Source of the DNA: Pomphorhynchus laevis
Taxonomy: Eukaryota > Acanthocephala > Palaeacanthocephala > Echinorhynchida > Pomphorhynchidae
NCBI GenBank assembly: GCA_012934845.2
Contig: WNNJ02003085.1
Span: 62,001-126,000 of the forward strand
Length of the DNA stretch: 64,000 bases
Direction: 5' to 3'
A model generated the notes under the pieces. That model ran no database searches. It was not told where the DNA came from and worked only from the letters and a program-made list of their open reading frames with translations. Positions 7,614 through 62,510 of the stretch are shown one piece after another (the first letter of the stretch is position 1; each line of letters opens with the position of its first letter). The position numbers and the translations under genes were made by a program.

Positions 7614-7662
7614 TCCACAATGTGTACAGTGTACACAATGTGTACACTGTACACATTGTGGA
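7614..7662. repeat. Perfect 49-bp palindrome (23-bp arms, 3-base loop)
   Basis: The left arm 7614-7636 and right arm 7640-7662 are exact reverse complements around AAT. The arms are themselves built of gtgtacac-type sub-palindromes. It lies directly upstream of the LINE-H 5' end at about 7668. Confidence 0.9.
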
Positions 7663-7698
7663 TACACCTTAAAAAATTTGGTTTCTAATAAACATACA

Positions 7699-7876
7699 AT
7701 TATTCCTGTCAGTTCCAAATTATTCCTGTCAGTTCCAGATTATTCCTGTCAGTTCCAGATTATTCCTGTCAGTTCCAGATTATTCCTGTTAGCTCCAGAT
7801 TATTCCTGTCAGTTCCAGATTATTCCTGTCAGTTCCAGATTATTCCTGTCAGTTCCAGATTATTCCTGTCAGTTCC
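7699..7876. repeat. 20-bp minisatellite in LINE-H 5' UTR
   Basis: About nine head-to-tail copies of attattcctgtcagttccag, the last one partial. Most are identical; one has two substitutions. The array lies between the conserved leader and the ORF1 start, as the 13-bp array does in element K. Confidence 0.9.
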
Positions 7877-7922
7877 GCTCGCTACGCTCGCGGATTGAGC
7901 TCAATCTATCGATAAAAGGTCA

Positions 7923-14299: not shown

Positions 14300-14404
14300 A
14301 AAAATTTTGGTTTCTTATAAACATACAATAAATAACATACACAAATTACAATCAATCCAGTTCCAGATCAATCCAGCAAATTTAACAGTTTTAACGCACA
14401 AGGA

Positions 14405-14745
14405 CAACCATCGACGCACTACGACAACCATCTACGACAACCATCTACGACAACCATCTACGACAACCATCTACGACAACCATCTACGACAACCATCTAC
14501 GACAACCATCTACGACAACCATCTACGACAACCATCTACGACAACCATCTACGACAACCATCTACGACAACCATCTACGACAACCATCTACGACAACCAT
14601 CGACGACAACCATCGACGACAACCATCGACGACAACCATCGACGACAACCATCGACGACAACCATCGACGACAACCATCGACGACAACCATCGACGACAA
14701 CAATCGACGACAACCATCCACGACAACAATCGACGGCAACCATCG
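14405..14745. repeat. 13-bp minisatellite in element K 5' UTR
   Basis: About 25 head-to-tail units. The first 15 or so read atctacgacaacc and the rest atcgacgacaacc, so two homogeneous blocks lie side by side. The array ends a few bases before the ORF1 start at 14749. Open frames on either strand here are only translated repeat. Confidence 0.9.
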
Positions 14746-14748
14746 TTT

Positions 14749-15774
14749 ATGGGTGGACGTAAGAAAACAACTAAGACCGACACCAACTATGGACAACTGC
14801 AAGTACAGTGCTCGATACACGACTGCAGCGTCTGGACAACAATCACCTGCGACAAGAATAAGGCTAAAGAAGACTTCGTATGTGGTTTTTGTGCCAACAA
14901 ACTAATATGCAACCTTTCCAATAAGCACATATCAACATCCAACACGTCAACTCAAACTACCCCCGTCGTTTCTAATGTCCTTTCTCCACCCACCGACCCT
15001 GCCACCATATACACTTCCCATTCCATGTCATCTTCACTCCCCGACACCCCACGTCCCGTCCTTCCTGTCTCGTTTCTCAATAACTTGCATCCATCAATCA
15101 AAATCACCTCCACCAACCTCCACTATCCTTCCACTCATAACCTTTCCTCACATCGCTTGCCACCCTCTTTATTATCATTATCCTCTATGTCTCCCGTCAT
15201 CAAATCAAATCCCTCCAAATCATCAACTGCCAGCTCTTCTATCGTGATCTCACCTACTCACGTCAGTCGTCCTCCTTTACGGAAGCGCTTTGCTTCTCGC
15301 GATCGTTGCGTCATTGTTACTAATATCACGCCTTCTAACTCCTTATCTCCACAAGCACGTCTGGACCACGATGTTTCCGCCTTCAGATCCATCCTCTCGT
15401 CTATTGTTCCTGCGGATAAACCATCCTTTTTCAAGGACATTTCTCCTGTCGCATTCATCCGTCTAAACAAATCTTCTCAATCTAATCCTTCCCAGCCCCA
15501 TCTCCTAAAAATTGTTTTCAAGCATCGCTCTCACGCGTCTTCTGTCCTCTCTCAACGATTCAAACTCATGTCATCTTCAACCACTCGAATTTTCCCCGAT
15601 CGCGCCCCTTCCGAAATCGCTCAAATCTCTTCAGCCCGCATCGAAAAACGCCGTCGCGAGGAAAACGGCGAAACATCACTCTCCATCCGAAACATAGACG
15701 GAAATTTTCAAGTTGTCCACACCCGTCCAAAAATTCAATGGCGCTCCATGTCTCCTATGTGTCTTCTCCACTAG
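14749..15774 (+). CDS. Element K ORF1, intact zinc-finger protein of 341 residues
   Basis: A basic start (MGGRKKTTKTD) precedes the finger pattern VQCSIHDCSVW then DFVCGFCANK (residues about 22-53), a Cys4 layout resembling a PHD or RING-like finger. A long Ser/Pro/Thr-rich region follows. The C-terminal third has DHDVSAFRSILSSIVP, FIRLNKSSQSN, HASSVLSQRFKLM and ends with a GETSLSIRNIDGNFQVV block. That last block is shared with the ORF1s of LINE-N and LINE-R as GEKNLIVKNFQVVRRR. The probable role is binding element RNA in the RNP. The end overlaps ORF2 by 37 bases in another frame. Confidence 0.8.
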   Translation: MGGRKKTTKTDTNYGQLQVQCSIHDCSVWTTITCDKNKAKEDFVCGFCANKLICNLSNKHISTSNTSTQTTPVVSNVLSPPTDPATIYTSHSMSSSLPDTPRPVLPVSFLNNLHPSIKITSTNLHYPSTHNLSSHRLPPSLLSLSSMSPVIKSNPSKSSTASSSIVISPTHVSRPPLRKRFASRDRCVIVTNITPSNSLSPQARLDHDVSAFRSILSSIVPADKPSFFKDISPVAFIRLNKSSQSNPSQPHLLKIVFKHRSHASSVLSQRFKLMSSSTTRIFPDRAPSEIAQISSARIEKRRREENGETSLSIRNIDGNFQVVHTRPKIQWRSMSPMCLLH

Positions 15775-37061: not shown

Positions 37062-37482
37062 CTTCAGGAGTAGGGATTTATCCGTCACAGATATCGTTAA
37101 GTACAGGGTGCCTCTTCCGGGCACCTCCAAATCCGTCGCTCCACTTTCTTCTAGTGTCTGTCAACTTTTGACAGCCGATCAGAGAAGAGAGGTGGCCATC
37201 ACAGTGCTGCTAGCATCCTCATCCGATGTAGCAGGATCAATATTAGTAAGCGAGGTTTTATTCCTAATAAATAATCTCGCTCATGCCCTAAAGATCTGCG
37301 ACCCATTTCGACTCAAAATGCTCTCGTGTCGATCTACGAAAAAGCGCTCGCGCGTAAAATCTGCGACCATCTGAGTAGGCGTAATTTGATCCCTCCAGGT
37401 TTTCATGAGTTCTGTCTTAGAAGGAGGTCTTCATGTAAAGACCTCCTTCTAACGTAAAGGTCTTTCATAAAGATCTTTATGA

Positions 37483-38193
37483 AAAGATCTATATGTAAAT
37501 ATAAGAAGTTTTTCTAAAGATATCATATGTTCAATAAATCAAAAATTAATTAACGACTATGATAGGCTAAGTTGTATAATAGACAGTTATTGTAATACAA
37601 AATACTATAATCGTACAATAAATGTAAATAATAACAATAGAAAATATACATTAATCATAAACTTCATTAATAAATGTATAGATAACATAAATATAGCCGG
37701 ACTTTTAAATAATTCTAAAAGTAAAGAAATAATAGGGTCAGATTTAAGTAAATATATTCCTAAAATAAGGTATAAACTCCTACCACCATTAGGACGAAAA
37801 ATTTGTAATTATAATAAAGAATTAAAATCAATATGTAACGATAATATTAGAAACATAATGGAAACAGAATGCAATTGTAAAAGTCTTAGTTTTGATAAAA
37901 TAAATGAACATATATGTACCCATAATCTAGAATTAATTGAAAATTGTGAATTAAGAAAGCTGCTATCAAAAGGGTATAAATATAGATTAAATAATAACAA
38001 CGACAAAAATAAAATTTACAATTCGTTATATAATAACTTAACTGATTACTTTAGTAAGCTGATTAATAGTGAAAGCTCGAATATATCTAAGATAAAAATT
38101 TGGAAAGATTATATATTTGATAAAATTAAAAATAAAATGAAAATAACAGACAATTATAAAAGAAAAGATAAAATCAAAAAAAGATATGTATAA
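37483..38193 (+). CDS. PLE N-terminal region (out of frame with its RT)
   Basis: An open frame of about 235 codons that includes INKCIDNINIAGLLNNS, KYIPKIRYKLLPPLGRKICNYN and the motif HICTHNLELIENCELRKLLSKGYKYR. In related proteins the last motif reads HvvTGDL..i....lr.ll.kGpkyR and precedes the RT. The true start is unclear: the frame is open from 37483 and the first ATG is 37858. The frame ends at 38193, 8 bases past the start of the RT frame, at an A-rich tract (caaaaaaag). One indel there would join both parts. Confidence 0.6.
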   Translation, partial: KDLYVNIRSFSKDIICSINQKLINDYDRLSCIIDSYCNTKYYNRTINVNNNNRKYTLIINFINKCIDNINIAGLLNNSKSKEIIGSDLSKYIPKIRYKLLPPLGRKICNYNKELKSICNDNIRNIMETECNCKSLSFDKINEHICTHNLELIENCELRKLLSKGYKYRLNNNNDKNKIYNSLYNNLTDYFSKLINSESSNISKIKIWKDYIFDKIKNKMKITDNYKRKDKIKKRYV

Positions 38194-39535
38194 AGAACTT
38201 ACTAAATTAAAGGGTAACTATATAATAACAACTATTGATAAAGCTAGTAATAACTTTGTCTTCATATGCAAAAAGCTTTATTACGATATACAAGTGACAG
38301 AGGTTAATTCTAATGATTTAAATGTAAATCCAACATATGAACGTAGTGAGTTGAGTTTAGAAACAATTATTACAAGTCACTGTTCTATAATGGATAAAAA
38401 GGGTATAAAGGTTGAATTAGATAATAAAACTATACCTATATTATATTGGAATCCAAAATTACATAAAAATCCAATAAAACCTAGGTTCGTATGTAGTGCG
38501 TTTAAATGTACATTAAAACCACTTTCTGTCTATATGAATAAAATACTTAAAGTAATCAAAGCACACTTCAAAAAATATTGCAAGGTAATAGAAATTAATA
38601 CTGGTATAAAACACTATTTCAGCATTAATTCTACAAAAGAATTTTTAGAACAGACAAAAGGAATAAATTTTCAAAATATAAATACATACGATTTTAGTAC
38701 TCTTTATACAAATCTAGATTTAGTAGATATTAAAGAAGCGTTAGTAAAATTAATTAATCTTATATTCGGAAAAAGATATACATATATATGTTATAATAAT
38801 TATAACGCCTATCTAACAAAAATTAAACCATCAAGTAAATATAAATATATGGATAAAATTGAATTAATAGAATCCTTAAATATTTTGATAAATCAAAATT
38901 ATTTAAAAGTAGGGACATCTATATTTAGACAAGTAAAAGGTGTTCCAATGGGTGGTAATAGTAGCCCAATTATAGCTGACTTGTTTTTAAGCTTTATAGA
39001 ATATGAATTTGTTCATAACTGTGTAAAAACTAAATCTAAACAATATAAATATATGAAATATATGTTTCGATACATTGATGATATATGTGTATTTAATTCT
39101 AATAATTTTTATTCAATTAGTGAGCACATTTATCCAGAAAGCCTTATTCTTAACAAAACCAATATTAATGATAAAGAAGGTGTATATCTAGATACGAACA
39201 TTAAATTAACATTAACTAAAACTACTATTAATTTATATCGTAAAGATGACATATTTAAATTTACAAGAAACATATTTTTGCGTGAGCATTCATGCATACC
39301 ATATAATATAAAATATAATACATTAAATAATGAAATTTTAAGAATTGCAACAATATGTAATGATATTGGCTTTCTTCAAAATCATTTAAATAATTTAATA
39401 GATACATATTTTAAACTAGGTTACTATAAAAATAACATCAAGCAGAAAATAGTAAAATATATAAATCAACACAATAATATAAAGAATAAATTTAAACTCT
39501 TAAGTGGCAAATTTTTATGGATGGATAATAAATAA
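38186..39535 (+). CDS. PLE reverse transcriptase, 449 codons
   Basis: Blocks: ITTIDKASNNFVFICKKLYY, PILYWNPKLHKNPIKPRFV, NTYDFSTLYTNLDLVDIKEAL (catalytic D), VKGVPMGGNSSPIIADLFLSFIEYEF and the active site FRYIDDICVFN near residue 296. Then IYPESLILNKTN, YLDTNIKL and a C-terminal region ending in KFKLLSGKFLWMDNK. This layout, with YIDD and GGNxSPxIADL, is typical of Penelope-like RTs. All catalytic residues are present. A protein-level match at 52943-53737 differs by only a few residues, so the family moved recently. Confidence 0.8.
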   Translation: MYKELTKLKGNYIITTIDKASNNFVFICKKLYYDIQVTEVNSNDLNVNPTYERSELSLETIITSHCSIMDKKGIKVELDNKTIPILYWNPKLHKNPIKPRFVCSAFKCTLKPLSVYMNKILKVIKAHFKKYCKVIEINTGIKHYFSINSTKEFLEQTKGINFQNINTYDFSTLYTNLDLVDIKEALVKLINLIFGKRYTYICYNNYNAYLTKIKPSSKYKYMDKIELIESLNILINQNYLKVGTSIFRQVKGVPMGGNSSPIIADLFLSFIEYEFVHNCVKTKSKQYKYMKYMFRYIDDICVFNSNNFYSISEHIYPESLILNKTNINDKEGVYLDTNIKLTLTKTTINLYRKDDIFKFTRNIFLREHSCIPYNIKYNTLNNEILRIATICNDIGFLQNHLNNLIDTYFKLGYYKNNIKQKIVKYINQHNNIKNKFKLLSGKFLWMDNK

Positions 39536-39604
39536 TATACTTTGTATTAGAATAAGATACTAGATAGTTATTTCAGAGGAAATACATCATTAGCATGTAT
39601 TTGG

Positions 39605-39680
39605 CCCCGCTGCTATGTTGGGTAGAGGAGTTAGAGGCCGAAACCTGATAGCATAGCAGTTCCTCCTGATGACCTCTAAT
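39605..39680 (+). other. PLE 3' UTR hairpin region
   Basis: Arms ctgctatg and catagcag enclose about 35 bases with gaggagttagaggccgaaac; cctcctgatgacctct follows. At 60105-60175 the arms read tgttatg and cataaca, so stem bases change in pairs. The copy at 53800-53880 keeps the first form. The structured RNA has no known assignment here. Confidence 0.6.
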
Positions 39681-39896
39681 TCTTATTCTGATACAACGTC
39701 TGTTATTTATTAGTCAATTCATAAAAATGACGTTTATTTTAAATTTCATTTTTTTTAACTTGATTTAAATTATTGAAAATCTAAAAACAATTATTAATTT
39801 TATTATTTAATTATTAAATTTTGATTTAGCATTATTATGTTTTGTTTATTTTATAATTATATTAAATACGTAGACTCAGTTAGCTGATTTAATTCG

Positions 39897-52500: not shown

Positions 52501-52885
52501 TTGTTTTATAAAAGATAAATATTAATTTACAAAAGGATGTATATTTTTACATCAGGTTTTATAAAGCTTAATGTGAAGGCTTTATCATCCGGAGCTAAAA
52601 GATGTGTGTACACGTTTTTTGATAAAGTATAAAAGCGATAAGTATTTAAACTTCTAGTAATGAAACTTGTATTTCTTTTAAAATAAATATACGATTTATT
52701 CGATGCATATATGTAATTTTCTCAAAATAACTAAAACTACAAGCAGTGTGCGGTTTTAATTAACTCCATAAGATACTTTACGCTAACTATATATGTTCTA
52801 TCAAATAATGTGAAGATTATATAATATAAATAATATAAATACGTAGAATTTTTATAAATACGTATGATATTTTAATAATATAAAT
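49526..52885. other. Long AT-rich stretch with no gene recognised
   Basis: No domain found on either strand. 51045-51160 is almost pure TA with nested TATTAATA palindromes. A hammerhead-like CTGATGA hairpin lies near 50860-50890 (minus). 51365-51475 resembles a diverged PLE 3' tip on the minus strand (aaatacgtaaactcagtta). Confidence 0.5.
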
Positions 52886-54104
52886 ACATACGATTTTAGT
52901 ACCCTTTATACAAATCTAGATTTAGTAGATATTAAAGAAGCGTTGGTAAAATTAATTAATCTTATATTCGGAAAAATATATACATATATATGTTATAATA
53001 ATTATAACGCCTATCTAACAAAAATTAAACCATCAAGTAAATATAAATATATGGATAAAATTGAATTAATAGAATCCTTAAATATTTTGATAAATCAAAA
53101 TTATTTAAAAGTAGGGACATCTATATTTAGACAAGTAAAAGGTGTTCCAATGGGTGGTAATAGTAGCCCAATTATAGCTGACTTGTTTTTAAGCTTTATA
53201 GAATATGAATTTGTTCATAACTGTGTAAAAACTAAATCTAAACAATATAAATATATGAAATATATGTTTCGATACATTGATGATATATGTGTATTTAATT
53301 CTAATAATTTTTATTCAATTAGTGAGCACATTTATCCAGAAAGCCTTATTCTTAACAAAACCAATATTAATGATAAAGAAGGTGTATATCTAGATATGAA
53401 CATTAAATTAACATTATCTAAAACTACTATTAATTTATATCGTAAAGATGACATATTTAAATTTACAAGAAACATATTTTTGCATGAGCATTCATGCATA
53501 CCATATAATATAAAATATAATACATTAAATAATGAAATTTTAAGAATTGCAACAATATGTAATGATATTGGCTTTCTTCAAAATCATTTAAATAATTTAA
53601 TAGATACATATTTTAAACTAGGTTACTATAAAAATAACATCAAACAGAAAATAGTAAAATATATAAATCAACACAATAATATAAAGAATAAATTTAAACT
53701 CTTAAGTGGCAAATTTTTATGGATGGATAATAAATAATATACTTTGCATTAGAATAAGATACTAGATAGTTATTTCAGAGGAAATACATCATTAGCATGT
53801 ATTTGGCCCCGCTGCTATGTCGGTTAGAGGAGTTAGGGGCCAAACCTGATAGCATAGCAGTTCTTACTGATAACCTCTAATTCTTATTCTGATACAACGT
53901 CTGTTATTTATTAGTCAATTCATAAAAATGACGTTTATTTTAAATTTAAATTTTTTATTTTAACTTGATTTAAATTATTAAAAATCTTGAAGCAATTATT
54001 TATTTTATTATATAATTATTAAATTTTGATTTAGCATAATTATTATGTTTTGTTTATTTTATAATTATATTAAATACGTAGACTCAGTTAGCTGATTTAA
54101 TTAT
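52886..54104 (+). mobile_element. Penelope-like element copy 2, 5'-truncated
   Basis: It begins at aatacatacgattttagtac, which matches 38682 of the complete copy, and runs to the same 3' terminus (ACGTAGACTCAGTTAGCTGA). Three near repeats of aatataaatac precede the break. The 3' UTR hairpin is present at about 53808-53862. Identity to the first copy is very high throughout. Confidence 0.8.
52943..53737 (+). CDS. PLE RT, C-terminal 264 codons
   Basis: Open frame with VKGVPMGGNSSPIIADLFL, FRYIDDICVFN, IYPESLILNKTN and the same C-terminus KLLSGKFLWMDNK. It differs from 38186-39535 by only a few substitutions (for example YLDMNIKLTLSK for YLDTNIKLTLTK, FLHEHS for FLREHS). The ATG is internal; the frame lacks the N-terminal RT blocks, so it cannot make an active enzyme. 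Confidence 0.8.
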   Translation: MVKLINLIFGKIYTYICYNNYNAYLTKIKPSSKYKYMDKIELIESLNILINQNYLKVGTSIFRQVKGVPMGGNSSPIIADLFLSFIEYEFVHNCVKTKSKQYKYMKYMFRYIDDICVFNSNNFYSISEHIYPESLILNKTNINDKEGVYLDMNIKLTLSKTTINLYRKDDIFKFTRNIFLHEHSCIPYNIKYNTLNNEILRIATICNDIGFLQNHLNNLIDTYFKLGYYKNNIKQKIVKYINQHNNIKNKFKLLSGKFLWMDNK

Positions 54105-54740
54105 TGATCAATCTCATTTAGATCATAAATCCCTGCCATTGTAATCGTAGAATGTACAGTAGTTTATATTGCAATTATTATGAGAAAGCAATTGGCTATT
54201 TCTAAAAATATGTTTGTAAGTTAGCCAGATAAGGAGAGTTTAGTAGGGAATTTTTAAACATTATAATATTTTGTTGAATATTACCTTTAAATCGACTAAT
54301 CACGTAAATGTCATCAAAATACATCAATATATGACCACAATATATCAGTTTCAAAAAAATCGAAATATGCTCCTGGAGATTGATTTTTACGAACAGAATA
54401 TAAAGATGTATAATATATTTATGTAAATGTTAATATACAATGAATATAAGAACTTAGCATAAGTGCTAGATCACACATTGTTATTTAGCAAATTAAATTA
54501 AGAGGAAGCATAGCGAAATACCCACTGATGACGGTTTAGAACGTGATATATTGTCATTTGGTTGAAAACATAAAGAATATTAATTGCGTGGATATCAAGC
54601 CCGAAACAATAAATTTTCAAGAATATTAGAGATTTTACATATTTTTTCGATACGTAATATTTAAAATACGGTATTATTAATATCAGGGTGTCAGCACCAC
54701 GAAAGAAATTTAACAGTGAAATTGTCGCAAATGACAAAGT

Positions 54741-54824
54741 TCACCATTTCGAACTAGTTGGTTCTCATCAGTAGCCTGTACTCCCCACAACTGGATTGAA
54801 GTTGGAAGAAAGGCTATATGGTGA
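54741..54824 (-). ncRNA. Hammerhead ribozyme, left arm
   Basis: The same fold on the minus strand: helix III 54824-54818 with 54747-54741, cleavage after A at 54817, helix I 54816-54811 with 54776-54771, core CTGATGA 54770-54764, helix II 54763-54760 with 54753-54750, then GAAA 54749-54746. None of the arm differences hits the core. Confidence 0.83.
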
Positions 54825-54903
54825 TTTGAAACAACGAAAGTCTCAAAGTTCCCTCACAAAGACTGGGGTTTGCAAGAGAACAAGGGACTTTCGTTGTTTC
54901 AAA

Positions 54904-54987
54904 TCACCATATAGCCTTTCTCCCAACTTCAATCCAGTTGTGGGGAGTACAGGCTACTGATGAGAACCAACTAGTTCGAAATGGTGA
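54904..54987 (+). ncRNA. Hammerhead ribozyme, right arm
   Basis: Helix III: TCACCAT (54904-54910) with ATGGTGA (54981-54987). Predicted cleavage follows A54911 (context CATA). Helix I: TAGCCT (54912-54917) with AGGCTA (54951-54956), extended by CTCCC/GGGAG and AAC/GTT around a 9-base loop. Core CTGATGA is 54957-54963. Helix II: GAAC (54964-54967) with GTTC (54974-54977) and loop CAACTA. Core GAAA is 54978-54981, its last A pairing with T54910. Helices I and II are closed and helix III is open, a type III layout. Every core base fits the known consensus, with A at the cleavage position, which is allowed. Confidence 0.85.
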
Positions 54988-55047
54988 CTTTGTCATTTGC
55001 GACAATTTCACTGTTGAATTTCTTTCGTGGTGCTGACACCCTGATAT

Positions 55048-56159
55048 CAAATAATTACACGAACAATAGTATTTCTATTTTAAGAAATTTATTGGTATTC
55101 TTAATATCCAAGGGTCTTTCTTAAAGTGTACACGAATAACAAAAATGATAGCACTGAAAAGAATTAGTTAATAAATACTTATTAAATAATTAAATGTTAA
55201 TTATTTAATTAATAATTATATGAACTTATTTAATAAATCAAGGTGACTGAAGTTAACTTTACCTGTGATAAATGAAAGTCTCGCTTAAAATCTAAATATT
55301 TTGCGAAGACGTTGTTGATATCGTCAACTAGACTAAGGATCAATGCTAAAAACAAAAGTCAAATCAGTTATCGCATTAAAATTATATATAGTAGTCAATG
55401 TAGCCAAGGAATTAAAACGTTTGTGCAGGCATTTCTAGAGTGACGGCTATCAAAATACTACTACGATGCAAAAATGGTAGTAATCTGCTAAAATGTCTTT
55501 TACCCAGACACTTAAAAGTGTTTGCTTTGCAAACAACGTTAAACTTTTAGGTTTTTGCTGACACTCAACGTCATTTTAAGGAAAAAATAACAGTATCGCC
55601 ACTTATCCTTCGCCTAAAGCCTAATTCATTAATAGTATTCTTTAATATACTACTACACAGTCCATACTATTCGGTAAATTAAATGATTATATAAGATAAT
55701 TGCCGAAAATGTTCAAATTGCTATACTTTAATTAGCTGAAAAGGGATACACGCTTGCATGATGTACCTGAATTATAAGTGAATTTTTACATTGAAATCAG
55801 AAGATTGCCCACACGTTATGTAAGCTATTTATTTAAATGATTTTGTATGTATACCTAATAGCTCATCATCAACCAATCCAACTATATCCAAAATTCTGGA
55901 ATGCATTTCAATGCAAATAGTGTACAATCGCTAAACACAAAATTCAATATTTAATATTAACAAAATAATAATTTCGTTAATAAAACAATTAATATGTAAC
56001 AATTAGCGCCATATTGACTCATATTGACTCGATTCTTAATACTATGGATTATTTAAAAACATTAAAAAGTAACATAAATATCCAAACAATATAGCAAATG
56101 TCAGAAGAATGCTGGAAAACCTAGTCGAATCTATCAGCTAAAATATCGTATTTCAATCT
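55048..56159. other. AT-rich stretch without recognisable genes
   Basis: No domain, RNA gene or element end recognised on either strand. Confidence 0.5.
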
Positions 56160-57640: not shown

Positions 57641-58630
57641 TTCGTAATGACGTATTTCCTTTGATTAAATTTGATTATTTAGTATCTTATTCTAATACAT
57701 TGTAGATTATTTATTATCCATTCATAAAAATTTTCCGATAATGATTTTAAATTTATTTTTAATATTATTGTGTTGATTCATATATTTTACTATTTTCTGT
57801 TTGATGATATTTTTACAGTGACCCAGTTTAAAATATGTATTTATAAAATAATTTAAATGATTTTGAAGAAAGCTAATATAATTACATATTTTGGCCATTC
57901 TTAAAATTTCATTATTTAATGTATTATATTTTATATTATATGGTATGCATGAATGCTCATGCAAAAATATGTTTCTTGTAAATTTAAATATGTCATCTTT
58001 ACGATATAAATTAATAGTAGTTTTAGTTAATGTTAATTTAATGTTCATATCTAGACATACACTTTCTTGATCATTAATATTGGTTTTGTTAAGAATAAGG
58101 CTCTCTGGATAAATTTGTTCACTAATTGAATAAAAATTATTAGAATTAAATATACATATATCATCAATGTATCGAAACATATATTTCATATATTTATATT
58201 GTTTAGATTTAGTTTTTACACAGTTATGAACAAATTCATATTCTATAAAGCTTAAAAACAAGTCAGCTATAATTGGGCTACTATTACCACCCATTGGAAC
58301 ACCTTTTACTTGTCTAAATATAGATGTCCCTACTTTTAAATAATTTTGATTTATCAAAATATTTAAGGATTCTATTAATTCAATTTTATCCATATATTTA
58401 TATTTATTTGATGGTTTAATTTTTGTTAGATAGGCGTTATAATTATTATAACATATATATGTATATCTTTTTCCGAATATAAGATTAATTAATTTTACTA
58501 ACGCTTCTTTAATATCTACTTTTGGCATCATATAACGAATTGTAAATTTTATTGTTATTGTTATTATTTAATCTATATTTTAATAGCGTTTTCTTAATTC
58601 ACCATTTTCAATTAATTCTAGATTAATATT
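57641..58630 (-). mobile_element. Penelope-like element copy 3, with internal deletion
   Basis: The minus-strand frame 58531-57722 holds the RT from VDIKEALVKL through VKGVPMGGNSSP and FRYIDDICIFN to NKFKIIIGKF. Upstream (58630-58540) are relics of LELIENGELRK and the bases aaaatttacaattcgttata, which join directly to gtagatattaaagaagcg. So about 0.7 kb between these points in the complete copy is deleted. The 3' UTR stops near aaggaaatacgtcatta, where the RTE begins. Confidence 0.75.
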
Positions 58631-58804
58631 TATTCAAAAAACTAATATTTGAAGAAATTTATTTAAAAACAATTTTAGTAATTTTAGATATGTTTAAGGT
58701 GACTAGGAACCTTATTATTTTTCTTATTTTGAGAGCTTGCAGTTATAAGATTATAAACATTGCGTAATACTTAAATGTAGCCTCTAATGTAATACGGTTT
58801 AAAA

Positions 58805-58985
58805 ACAAGTTTAATAATATGTAATGATATTGGCTTTCTTCAAAATCATTTAAATAATTTAATAGATACATATTTTAAACTAGGTTACTATAAAAATAAC
58901 ATCAAGCAGAAAATAGTAAAATATATAAATCAACACAAAAGTAGTAAAAATAAATTTAAACTCTTAAGTGGAAAAGTTTTATAAA
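58805..58985 (+). mobile_element. Penelope-like fragment (C-terminal codons only)
   Basis: Matches the last 55 or so codons of the PLE RT (CNDIGFLQNHLNNLIDTYFKLGYYKNN) and stops soon after the terminal LSGK codons. The 3' UTR is absent, unlike most other copies. Confidence 0.65.
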
Positions 58986-59954
58986 TGAATATTCACATGT
59001 ATACTTGAATTTTGGTTCATGAATGTCATTAACTAATGTACTGAGAAAAAGTACTTAATTATATTATACTAACATTATTAAATAACTGGTAATACCATTG
59101 TTACATACTTAAAATCCAGTTATTGCTAACCAGATTAGTTGGCTGCGTTAAAATCGAATAATTAAAAAAATCTGATGTAAAATTTTAACTGTATTACGAT
59201 CGCCTTTCATTTAAATTTCAGAGCAAACGCTTTAAATAAGTTATTAAATCGTTAAATGTATCTTTTAATAATTTATATCACACAATCTGTTGAGACTATT
59301 ACTATTTTGTTTATTAAGCAGGCTATCCCTGTAACTATATATTTCCATGATAATATTAAATTTAAAATTTAACATGTAAAAGTAAAAAAATACATAAATT
59401 CGTATTTAGGGTTATCATAATCGTAATATTAAAGTATCGTAATTTTTAGTTTTTTTTTTCCAGAAGTCTGGAAAATAACAACATAACTAATTTTCAAGCA
59501 GTATTTTTCTTCGAAAAAGAACACGGTTGTACCACAAGGAGTGTTTGCATACTTTATAAAAAACGTAGTTTTGCTGTGTTAATCTATATCCTTAAAAGTA
59601 CATGTTTTATCTTTCAAAATACAATTCGTACCATTTATATATTCAGTTCATTTTGACCTTTTAAAGAGTTTTATTCGAAATTAAGTGTTCAATTTTTAAA
59701 CGTTTGGCTTTAATCTTATGGCATTTCACCAAAAATTGTATACTACAATTATAATAATCTATTTATCTGTGAAAATACAAATTATTAGTTGTGAAAGTAA
59801 ATCTTTTAAAGCTGGAACAGTCAGTAAGATTGGATATATTTTTAAAAATGACGTCATCACTTGTAAAGTATGTTTTAAATGACGTCATCCCCTGTTTTAG
59901 CATCACTGCTAAATAAAACATTATACTCAACACATCAATAATTTATGGTATACT
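58986..59954. other. AT-rich stretch without recognisable genes
   Basis: No domain recognised. A doubled atgacgtcatc motif (about 59848 and 59879) is the only small repeat noticed. Confidence 0.45.
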
Positions 59955-61569: not shown

Positions 61570-62510
61570 AAATTTAATCTCGTATTATAATTTAATGTAA
61601 TTAAATAGATAGTTTTACAAAAACAAAGAAGAAAATAGTTTTCCTTTGAAAAAATTCAATACTTCGATAACCTTTGCTATCATCATCAAGATTACCAAAA
61701 AAATGTTCACAAAATTTCGATTTTTATATTTATGCAAAAATACAAGTATTTATGTGCCTCGCATTTCTACTTAAAAAGGAAAAGAAAATACCGAAAAACA
61801 ACACAAAATTGAACAGCACACATTTTTAAACAAACAAACAAAAAAGAAAAAGACAAAATCATAAAACAAAATAACAGCAAAACCATAAAACAAGTGATAA
61901 AAACATACGAATTGAATAATTAAAATAATATTATAATAAAGTTATTAATTATAATTTAATCTAAACCAAAACAAAATCTTAGAACAATGAAAAAACAAAC
62001 GAATGAAAATAATTTAATCTTAGAAAAATAAATTATAAATTAATTTAAGGTTGAATTGAAATTAGATTTATTATTAAACGTTAAATTTGGTTCTATTTTT
62101 GGATAAAATATGTTTCTTGAATAATGCAAGATAACAAGTTACTTTTAAATGATAATGTATGTTTTTATCACTTTTATATGATTTTGTTTTATGATTTTGT
62201 ATTTTGTTTTTTCTTTTTTGTTTGTTTTAAAATACGTGTTGTTCAATTTTGTGTTGTATGCATGTTTTGTTTTTTCGGTATTTTCTTTTTATTTTTCAGT
62301 AGAAATGGGAGGGGCACATCAATGCATCATGAATTTTTGCATAAATGTTAATTATCAAAATTTTGTAAACATTTTAATTTTCATCCTGATAATCATAACA
62401 GGAGCTATAAAATATTGTACTTTTAAATAAAGGGAAATATTTTCTTCTTCGTTCCTCTAAAACTATATGATCAAAATGTAAGGAGAGATTATGGATTTAG
62501 TCTGTACTAA
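61570..62510. repeat. Large diverged palindrome inside the TOM1-like intron
   Basis: Left arm about 61570-61920 and right arm about 62155-62510 are imperfect inverted copies. Matching blocks include gaaaataccgaaaaa / tttttcggtattttc, caacacaaaattgaaca / tgttcaattttgtgttg and tttatgcaaaaat / atttttgcataaa. The spacer is about 235 bases. Divergence is considerable, with several indels. Confidence 0.75.

Follow-up and report, generated by a model that had tools for sequence, protein, structure and literature searches.

A putative type III hammerhead retrozyme and its head-to-head insertions in the acanthocephalan Pomphorhynchus laevis

A 64,000 nt stretch of contig WNNJ02003085.1 from the acanthocephalan Pomphorhynchus laevis (positions 62,001 to 126,000 of the forward strand, assembly GCA_012934845.2; hereafter the window) contains a long palindrome, each arm of which carries a hammerhead ribozyme motif. 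The palindrome is probably a head-to-head insertion of an animal retrozyme with a type III hammerhead, both target strands having been extended by a Penelope-type reverse transcriptase. It belongs to a dispersed family of 368 bp units whose insertions end preferentially at two internal sites. When inverted, they are frequently bracketed as a whole by target site duplications (TSDs), and nearly always pair one of each site where both ends lie at these; head-to-head is the rule among the inverted loci read. Ribozyme activity, RNA circles, and a Penelope-like element (PLE) supplying the enzyme, are further components that we infer.

Two opposed copies form the palindrome

The inner arms of the palindrome (54741-54842 and 54886-54987) are 102 nt long, 99% complementary and separated by a loop of 43 nt, and the outer arms (54677-54740 and 54987-55050) extend them by 64 nt at 97% complementarity. 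The total of approximately 165 bp agrees with the first-pass annotation, which had described arms of about 163 bp that were about 98% complementary. The insertion is wider than the extent it gave, 54680-55047: it ends at 55093 and lies between a left TSD at 54670-54683 (GGTATTATTAATAT, the last four bases of which can also be read as element) and a right TSD at 55094-55107 (GGTATTCTTAATAT). This duplication is 14 bp long with one mismatch, and scores 8 in the exact-match flank scan described below.

In terms of the 368 nt unit, the positions of which are numbered from u1, the left copy (54680-54873, minus strand) runs from end site A, at about u180, inward past u1 and takes in 13 bases of the unit before it, reaching u356; the last five of these bases are common to the right copy. 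The minus-strand match of 54677-54873 spans u182 to u356, at 95%. The right copy (54869-55093, plus strand) extends from u1 to end site B, its end being about u225 as judged from the duplication, while the BLAST match continues to 55097 (u229). Both copies meet at a 5 nt TTTGC microhomology (54869-54873), read by eye. The 46 nt stretch between sites A and B (55048-55093, plus strand) is present on the right side only and resembles a PLE tail. Over 179 sites the two copies show 9 differences, and over the 163 sites within the arms 3. An assembly chimera caused by a missing adaptor, the artefact of which the first-pass annotation had warned, is unlikely to be the palindrome's source, judging from the sequence, because the flanks are not inverted, the copies differ at these nine sites and the duplication brackets the whole insertion.

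Each arm carries a type III hammerhead motif

The right hammerhead (54904-54987, plus strand) comprises TCACCAT, the predicted cleavage position A54911, TAGCCT paired with AGGCTA, CTGATGA at 54957-54963, the hairpin GAAC-CAACTA-GTTC, GAAA at 54978-54981 and ATGGTGA. Its counterpart (54741-54824, minus strand) has its predicted cleavage 3' of 54817 on that strand. The defining features of the class are present: the core CUGAUGA and GAAA, UH at the cleavage site and three helices, of which helix III is open. When either arm is folded alone, the hammerhead is the minimum-energy structure, at -30.3 kcal/mol for one arm (z -3.8; 0 of 200 shuffles as good) and -26.5 kcal/mol for the other (z -2.1; 8 of 200 as good). 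A type III descriptor, composed once the motif was already known, finds exactly these two matches across the 64 kb, whereas 100 Markov-randomised windows contain none. The motif parts, folds and descriptor scan thus bear out the earlier proposal of a complete, opposed hammerhead with open helix III in each arm, and on sequence and predicted fold both are assigned to type III.

The recommended comparison with covariance models was partly adverse. No Rfam family reached its gathering score in the window, and scans at gathering and relaxed thresholds gave only a weak HH9 core, at 12.6-16.7 bits against 52; the long helix I is a putative cause of these low scores. Rfam microRNA matches in the window come from the long hairpin. 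A search for the exact hammerhead core in IMG/VR returned 0 matches.

A dispersed family of 368 bp units

When the species' own assembly (249 Mb, 3,242 contigs) was searched, at least 189 matches to the palindrome were found, together with 290 matches to the ribozyme core allowing up to three mismatches, against 0 for a reversed control pattern. Both the further copies and the head-to-tail arrays that the first-pass annotation had proposed looking for are present, most copies being head-to-tail or single. The unit is 368 bp long (366-369 bp in 25 aligned full units), non-coding and equipped with one ribozyme, and about 189 bp of the aligned full unit is mostly absent from the palindrome. Insertions mapped at 39 loci and in the window span from less than one to approximately 10 units. 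Such dispersed, short tandem arrays of non-coding units, each with a hammerhead, are characteristic of retrozymes of the metazoan kind. The fetched loci have a GC content of 31.7%, and the window 36.3%. Flanks are mostly unrelated among 20 compared loci, being common to L007 and L008 and to L009 and L010; shared flanks are also recorded for L008 with L036.

Head-to-head arrangements like that of the window occur at 13 of these 40 loci (including L010, a flank duplicate of L009), and the other 27 lack them. This does not support the original description of the foldback as the element, given that the unit is mostly head-to-tail or single and that junctions vary by locus. A foldback or Miniature Inverted-repeat Transposable Element-like DNA transposon, with hammerheads in its terminal inverted repeats and cleavage gated by the hairpin, would account for the inverted arms and the TSD in the window. 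It is nevertheless extremely unlikely, as it fits neither the 27 loci that are not head-to-head, nor the differing unit positions at which copies meet, nor the unlike outer ends, one at A and one at B. The gating itself, suggested earlier, also finds no support in the predicted folds: for a transcript of the palindrome the long hairpin reaches -318.8 kcal/mol, compared with -201.8 kcal/mol when the hammerhead is enforced, and in predictions for the growing transcript the second arm, on emerging, immediately pairs with the first. Because the hairpin beats the hammerhead by 117 kcal/mol and the arms pair so early, a shutdown of cleavage is likelier than gating, and the palindrome itself appears on these models to be a by-product of integration, with a transcript that prefers the long hairpin.

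Some repeats of the family are organised differently. Locus L046 (contig C2101:103000-108000), and contig C2101 as far as about 125 kb, hold a long, satellite-like array of diverged 368 bp units, which differs from the dispersed short insertions. Locus L017 (2889-3374) contains four partial copies of a 129-130 bp sub-repeat (approximately u337 to u99), as if derived from a smaller deleted unit.

Helices covary among copies

Covariation of the hammerhead helices is evident in an alignment of 50 rows, picked from 96 full-length matches of which 73 were distinct. Standard pairs occupy 95.0% of hammerhead cells, compared with 93.7% in shuffles, and both sides of the pair are changed in 24 cells, compared with 6.3; neither value was reached by any of 500 shuffles. 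Control structures slid along the alignment pair in 33-43% of cells and have at most four two-sided cells. The two-sided changes are located in the inner part of helix I and in helices II and III. Most of them belong to one subfamily (L006, L025, L042 and L048), and so represent few events in many copies. RNAalifold recovered 12 pairs, forming helix II and another hairpin and not the whole hammerhead; counting pairs on the named structure gave a better result. Also tried as conserved structures, and rejected, were hairpins formed around A and B: 92.7% of their cells pair and eight are two-sided, compared with 3.7 in shuffles, while the pairs so changed number only 2, compared with 2.1.

These data bear on whether the unit could be a catalytically dead repeat, hammerhead-like only by descent. 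The Rfam scores below threshold and a changed core position in 7 of the 50 rows, as read by eye, point that way. The core is intact in the remaining rows, however, and two-sided changes affect all three helices, making a dead repeat improbable; self-cleavage would be expected of the intact copies.

Insertions end at two internal sites

Among 52 element ends, 21 lie at u178-187 (...CACCCTGATAT; site A), 20 at u223-238 (...GAAATTTATTGAT; site B, at about u226) and 11 elsewhere, although by eye two of the latter, in L007 and L021, resemble the first site. The two sites, approximately 46 nt apart, therefore hold 41 of 52 ends, or 39 of 50 when the two from L010 are left out. Four ends were omitted from this list (L022 right, u157; L034 right, u112; the first L036 piece, u228; a short L032 piece, u7), and with these added the figure is 42 of 56. 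Calls of A and B were based on BLAST ends and, where simple repeats obscure the boundary (L057, L023, L053 and C3088), on inspection by eye. Locus L055 is out of phase in one alignment of the family (A2), and a later one (A3) omits both it and L009:4094-4206. Searching with a pattern of site B on its own gave no improvement over the control (71 vs 59).

The 5' ends are scattered, and two adjacent internal 3' ends are a feature of PLE-type integration. The clustering at A and B implies that copying starts mainly at two internal sites. None of the 52 ends falls within 5 nt of u43, the predicted cleavage site, and integration therefore does not use the 3' end that cleavage would leave on the RNA.

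Inverted insertions arise as units and tend to pair one A end with one B end

Wherever direction changes in the loci read, minus is followed by plus, which is the head-to-head order, the single opposite case being a short 84% piece in L046. Exact flank matches of at least 8 bp surround the whole inverted insertion in 14 of 18 cases, compared with 5.6% of mixed pairs (P 5e-5), with a mean match of 10.2 compared with 5.3. The boundaries of these 18 were set by hand, and C1588, C3088, C1075 and L011 are not among them. Single-orientation insertions have a duplication of at least 8 bp in 6 of 21 cases (P 1e-4). Where found, duplications measure 8-16 bp, and at the edges of inverted insertions the AT content is 80%. 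Duplications around the whole argue that inverted insertions were born as units. A satellite whose inverted pieces came from DNA-level rearrangement after insertion is correspondingly very unlikely: the long degenerate array on contig C2101 and the short opposite piece in L046 would suit it, but neither the bracketing duplications nor the head-to-head order of all other direction changes would.

Twenty-two inverted insertions could be resolved at both ends, L010 being omitted as a duplicate and L032, with one short 78% plus piece, not counted. Thirteen are A/B, one is A/A (L044), none is B/B and eight have at least one other end: two A/other (L038, L053), five B/other (L022, L034, C1588, C3088, C1075) and one other/other (L011). 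Head-to-head insertions using only A and B are thus mixed in 13 of 14 cases (P 0.0009 under free choice), or 12 of 13 without L057, which was called by eye (P 0.0017). An apparent bias in A/B order with contig orientation, 9 of 9 at first, disappeared as loci were added, since L054, L056, L057 and L060 run the opposite way.

These ends also bear on the possibility that a long interspersed nuclear element (LINE) moved the unit by target-primed reverse transcription, its inversions being ordinary twin priming. LINE-like reverse transcriptase (RT) open reading frames (ORFs) exist in the window, RVT_1 is strong in two of four other ORFs tested, and duplications of about 10-15 bp also fit LINEs. 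Against this, the 3' ends favour two internal sites and have no poly-A tail in common, although AT-rich simple sequence adjoins several of them. When a single linear RNA undergoes twin priming, its inverted and direct parts are free of overlap, whereas here u1-180 is present in both arms, and the rule of one A and one B would be unexpected. A LINE is accordingly an unlikely agent.

The opposed copies record something of their templates. They meet at a different unit position in each locus whose centre was read, the innermost pair differing by 1.1 to 12.4%. In all 13 loci compared, this pair is closer than the median distance that separates either member from other copies. Within L006 the units are 0-2.7% apart, with a between-locus mean of 9.3%, and a circular template would explain this near-identity.

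Candidate helper elements

The P. laevis genome is rich in a PLE with an N-terminal GIY-YIG domain; a first-look search for it yielded 26,162 candidates, of which 94 were scored. In the window, a 5'-truncated copy of this candidate helper family (52869-54103, plus strand, 96% to L049) lies 0.57 kb from the palindrome, to which it is not joined. Another Penelope-like copy occupies 37482-39894 (plus strand), with an RT ORF at 38186-39535. Penelope-like pieces at 57645-58991 are themselves inverted and head-to-head (57645-58520 minus, 58813-58991 plus), and adjoin another RT fragment. Outside the window, the Penelope-like copy L049 has an open frame of 904 aa. A 150 aa N-terminal piece of it (residues 23-172) matches GIY-YIG at 29 bits (cut-off 22.6) and is followed by RT, which scores 24.7 bits in L049, below the 29.6 cut-off, and 30.9 bits in one window copy. 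A GIY-YIG is also listed for the related protein P0077.

The Naiad clade of N-terminal GIY-YIG PLEs, on which Craig et al. are said to have reported in 2021, reportedly combines high copy number and inverted insertions with an absence of hammerheads. In its architecture, GIY-YIG followed by RT, and in its high copy number the local PLE resembles this clade; here, though, a hammerhead is borne by a separate small element.

A 3' end piece of the local PLE (ACTCAGTTAGCTGAT) recurs 5,077 times in the genome. After CTGATTTRATT the sequence mostly varies among the matches listed, and at least two subfamilies diverge immediately after TATTATT. Three ends in L025 and L033 hinted at a second end near TATTATTG, which was dropped after a genome test.

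Among other features of the loci and window, degenerate COX1-like pieces in L050, L051 and L052 are probably mitochondrial insertions, and tandem arrays are present in the window at 14328-14795 and 7659-7896, with periods of 13 bp and 20 bp.

Proposed mechanism and points against it

A retrozyme copied onto both target strands by a Penelope-type enzyme would operate as follows. Tandem units would be transcribed and cut by the hammerhead into monomers, which, by analogy with described retrozymes, would circularise. A Penelope-like RT with a GIY-YIG endonuclease may then copy the circular or multimeric RNA, having cut both strands of AT-rich DNA with a stagger of approximately 8-16 bp and primed on both. 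Copying would begin at the preferred RNA sites A (about u180) and B (about u226), one per strand, and continue for one or more rounds. One productive strand would give head-to-tail arrays, and two would give head-to-head insertions, the cDNAs meeting at variable places.

Besides the Rfam result, a number of observations weigh against this interpretation. Self-cleavage is predicted from the sequence, and RNA circles by analogy. Two of five covariation measures gave no excess over shuffles (pairs with a two-sided change, 4 vs 3.4; further pair types, 20 vs 19.3). No 8 bp duplication was found around 4 of the 18 inverted insertions (L048, L038, L044 and L034) or 15 of the 21 in single orientation. 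If the two arms were copies of one RNA, each should be the other's nearest relative, which holds in only 2 of 13 loci (L009 and L044). Units of L007 differ by 3-10%, which one circle does not explain, so multimeric or mixed templates would be needed. Sampling also matters: the route to the loci was a match to u1-180 or to a smaller part of it, leaving ends within u1-180 under-sampled, and the later inverted loci (L047, L048 and L053-L060) were picked for their inverted appearance. For the candidate helper, Pfam scans detected no match, GIY-YIG included, in the whole 904 aa ORF or in residues 1-220, perhaps owing to biased composition, and a PDB comparison of the protein was not significant. 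Two matching start sites were not found in the local PLE, as about 100 matches listed of the 5,077 mostly part at one place when read by eye, and among the matches listed of 560, most run on past the possible second end site. With one clear end site, and a second at best rare among the matches listed, this PLE is a candidate helper.

Relation to known systems

Metazoan non-LTR (long terminal repeat) retrozymes, as described in the available text of PMC7229834, are tandem non-coding units of 170-400 nt with low GC and a type I hammerhead each, for which PLEs were proposed as helper. The P. laevis family shares the small tandem units, low GC, hammerhead per unit and, when present, duplications longer than 4 bp; its open helix III, however, makes it a variant and not a member of that type I group. 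Neither 'inverted' nor 'head-to' appears as a word in the text of PMC7229834. Plant LTR retrozymes are likewise non-autonomous and carry type III hammerheads, but are characterised, in the parts of PMC7229834 and PMC7761336 available, by LTRs of about 350 bp, a tRNA primer site, a polypurine tract and 4 bp duplications. No two-LTR layout was present in the loci read, and duplications, where found, were 8-16 bp; primer site and polypurine tract were not searched for. A circular RNA intermediate belongs to the plant elements, and would be expected here.

Type III hammerheads in animals are not new as such, because the text of PMC7761336 available mentions them in hepatitis delta virus (HDV)-like circular RNAs of toads and termites and, as work in preparation, in insect elements. 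The HDV-like agents resemble the present family in having this hammerhead in an animal setting and in both polarities of one RNA; they are circular RNAs, whereas here genomic repeats have duplications and the two polarities derive from an inverted insertion. No report of type III animal retrozymes or of head-to-head retrozymes was found in the open-licence literature searched, within which the geometry that the first-pass annotation had thought undescribed, head-to-head with helix III open, does appear to be so.

The closest parallel for the ends comes from a PLE protein studied in vitro, which, in the portion of PMC11167929 available, acts by preference on AT-rich DNA, cutting both strands and extending them, and uses two adjacent internal start sites that bound a genomic tail of 30-40 bp. 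The P. laevis insertions likewise have two adjacent internal start sites and AT-rich targets, and would require extension of both strands; their sites are 46 nt apart, compared with 30-40, and lie on a 368 nt non-coding unit. In that study the start sites did not differ between strands, whereas in P. laevis A and B tend to be used once each per insertion, an integration rule that is possibly new. Tentatively, and with somewhat less than even confidence, the two start sites of one RNA, or of one RNA pair, may be used by two RT subunits, one per strand of the staggered cut, such that the tail is the offset between subunits and head-to-head insertions are a record of this use; a type III retrozyme would then exploit this in an animal whose abundant PLE may lack a ribozyme.

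Significance

The enzyme that moves animal retrozymes has been proposed and not identified, according to the available text of PMC7229834 and PMC7761336, and the ends and target site repeats of the palindrome bear on the mobility of such elements in animals. A start-site signature in the insertions allows comparison with the in vitro PLE reaction, and the inverted ones would be a natural record of both strands primed in one event; the 22 resolved cases offer material with which the origin of PLE tails and inverted copies may be tested. Type III topology, among retrozymes mostly reported in plants, would now extend to a retrozyme-like element of an animal.
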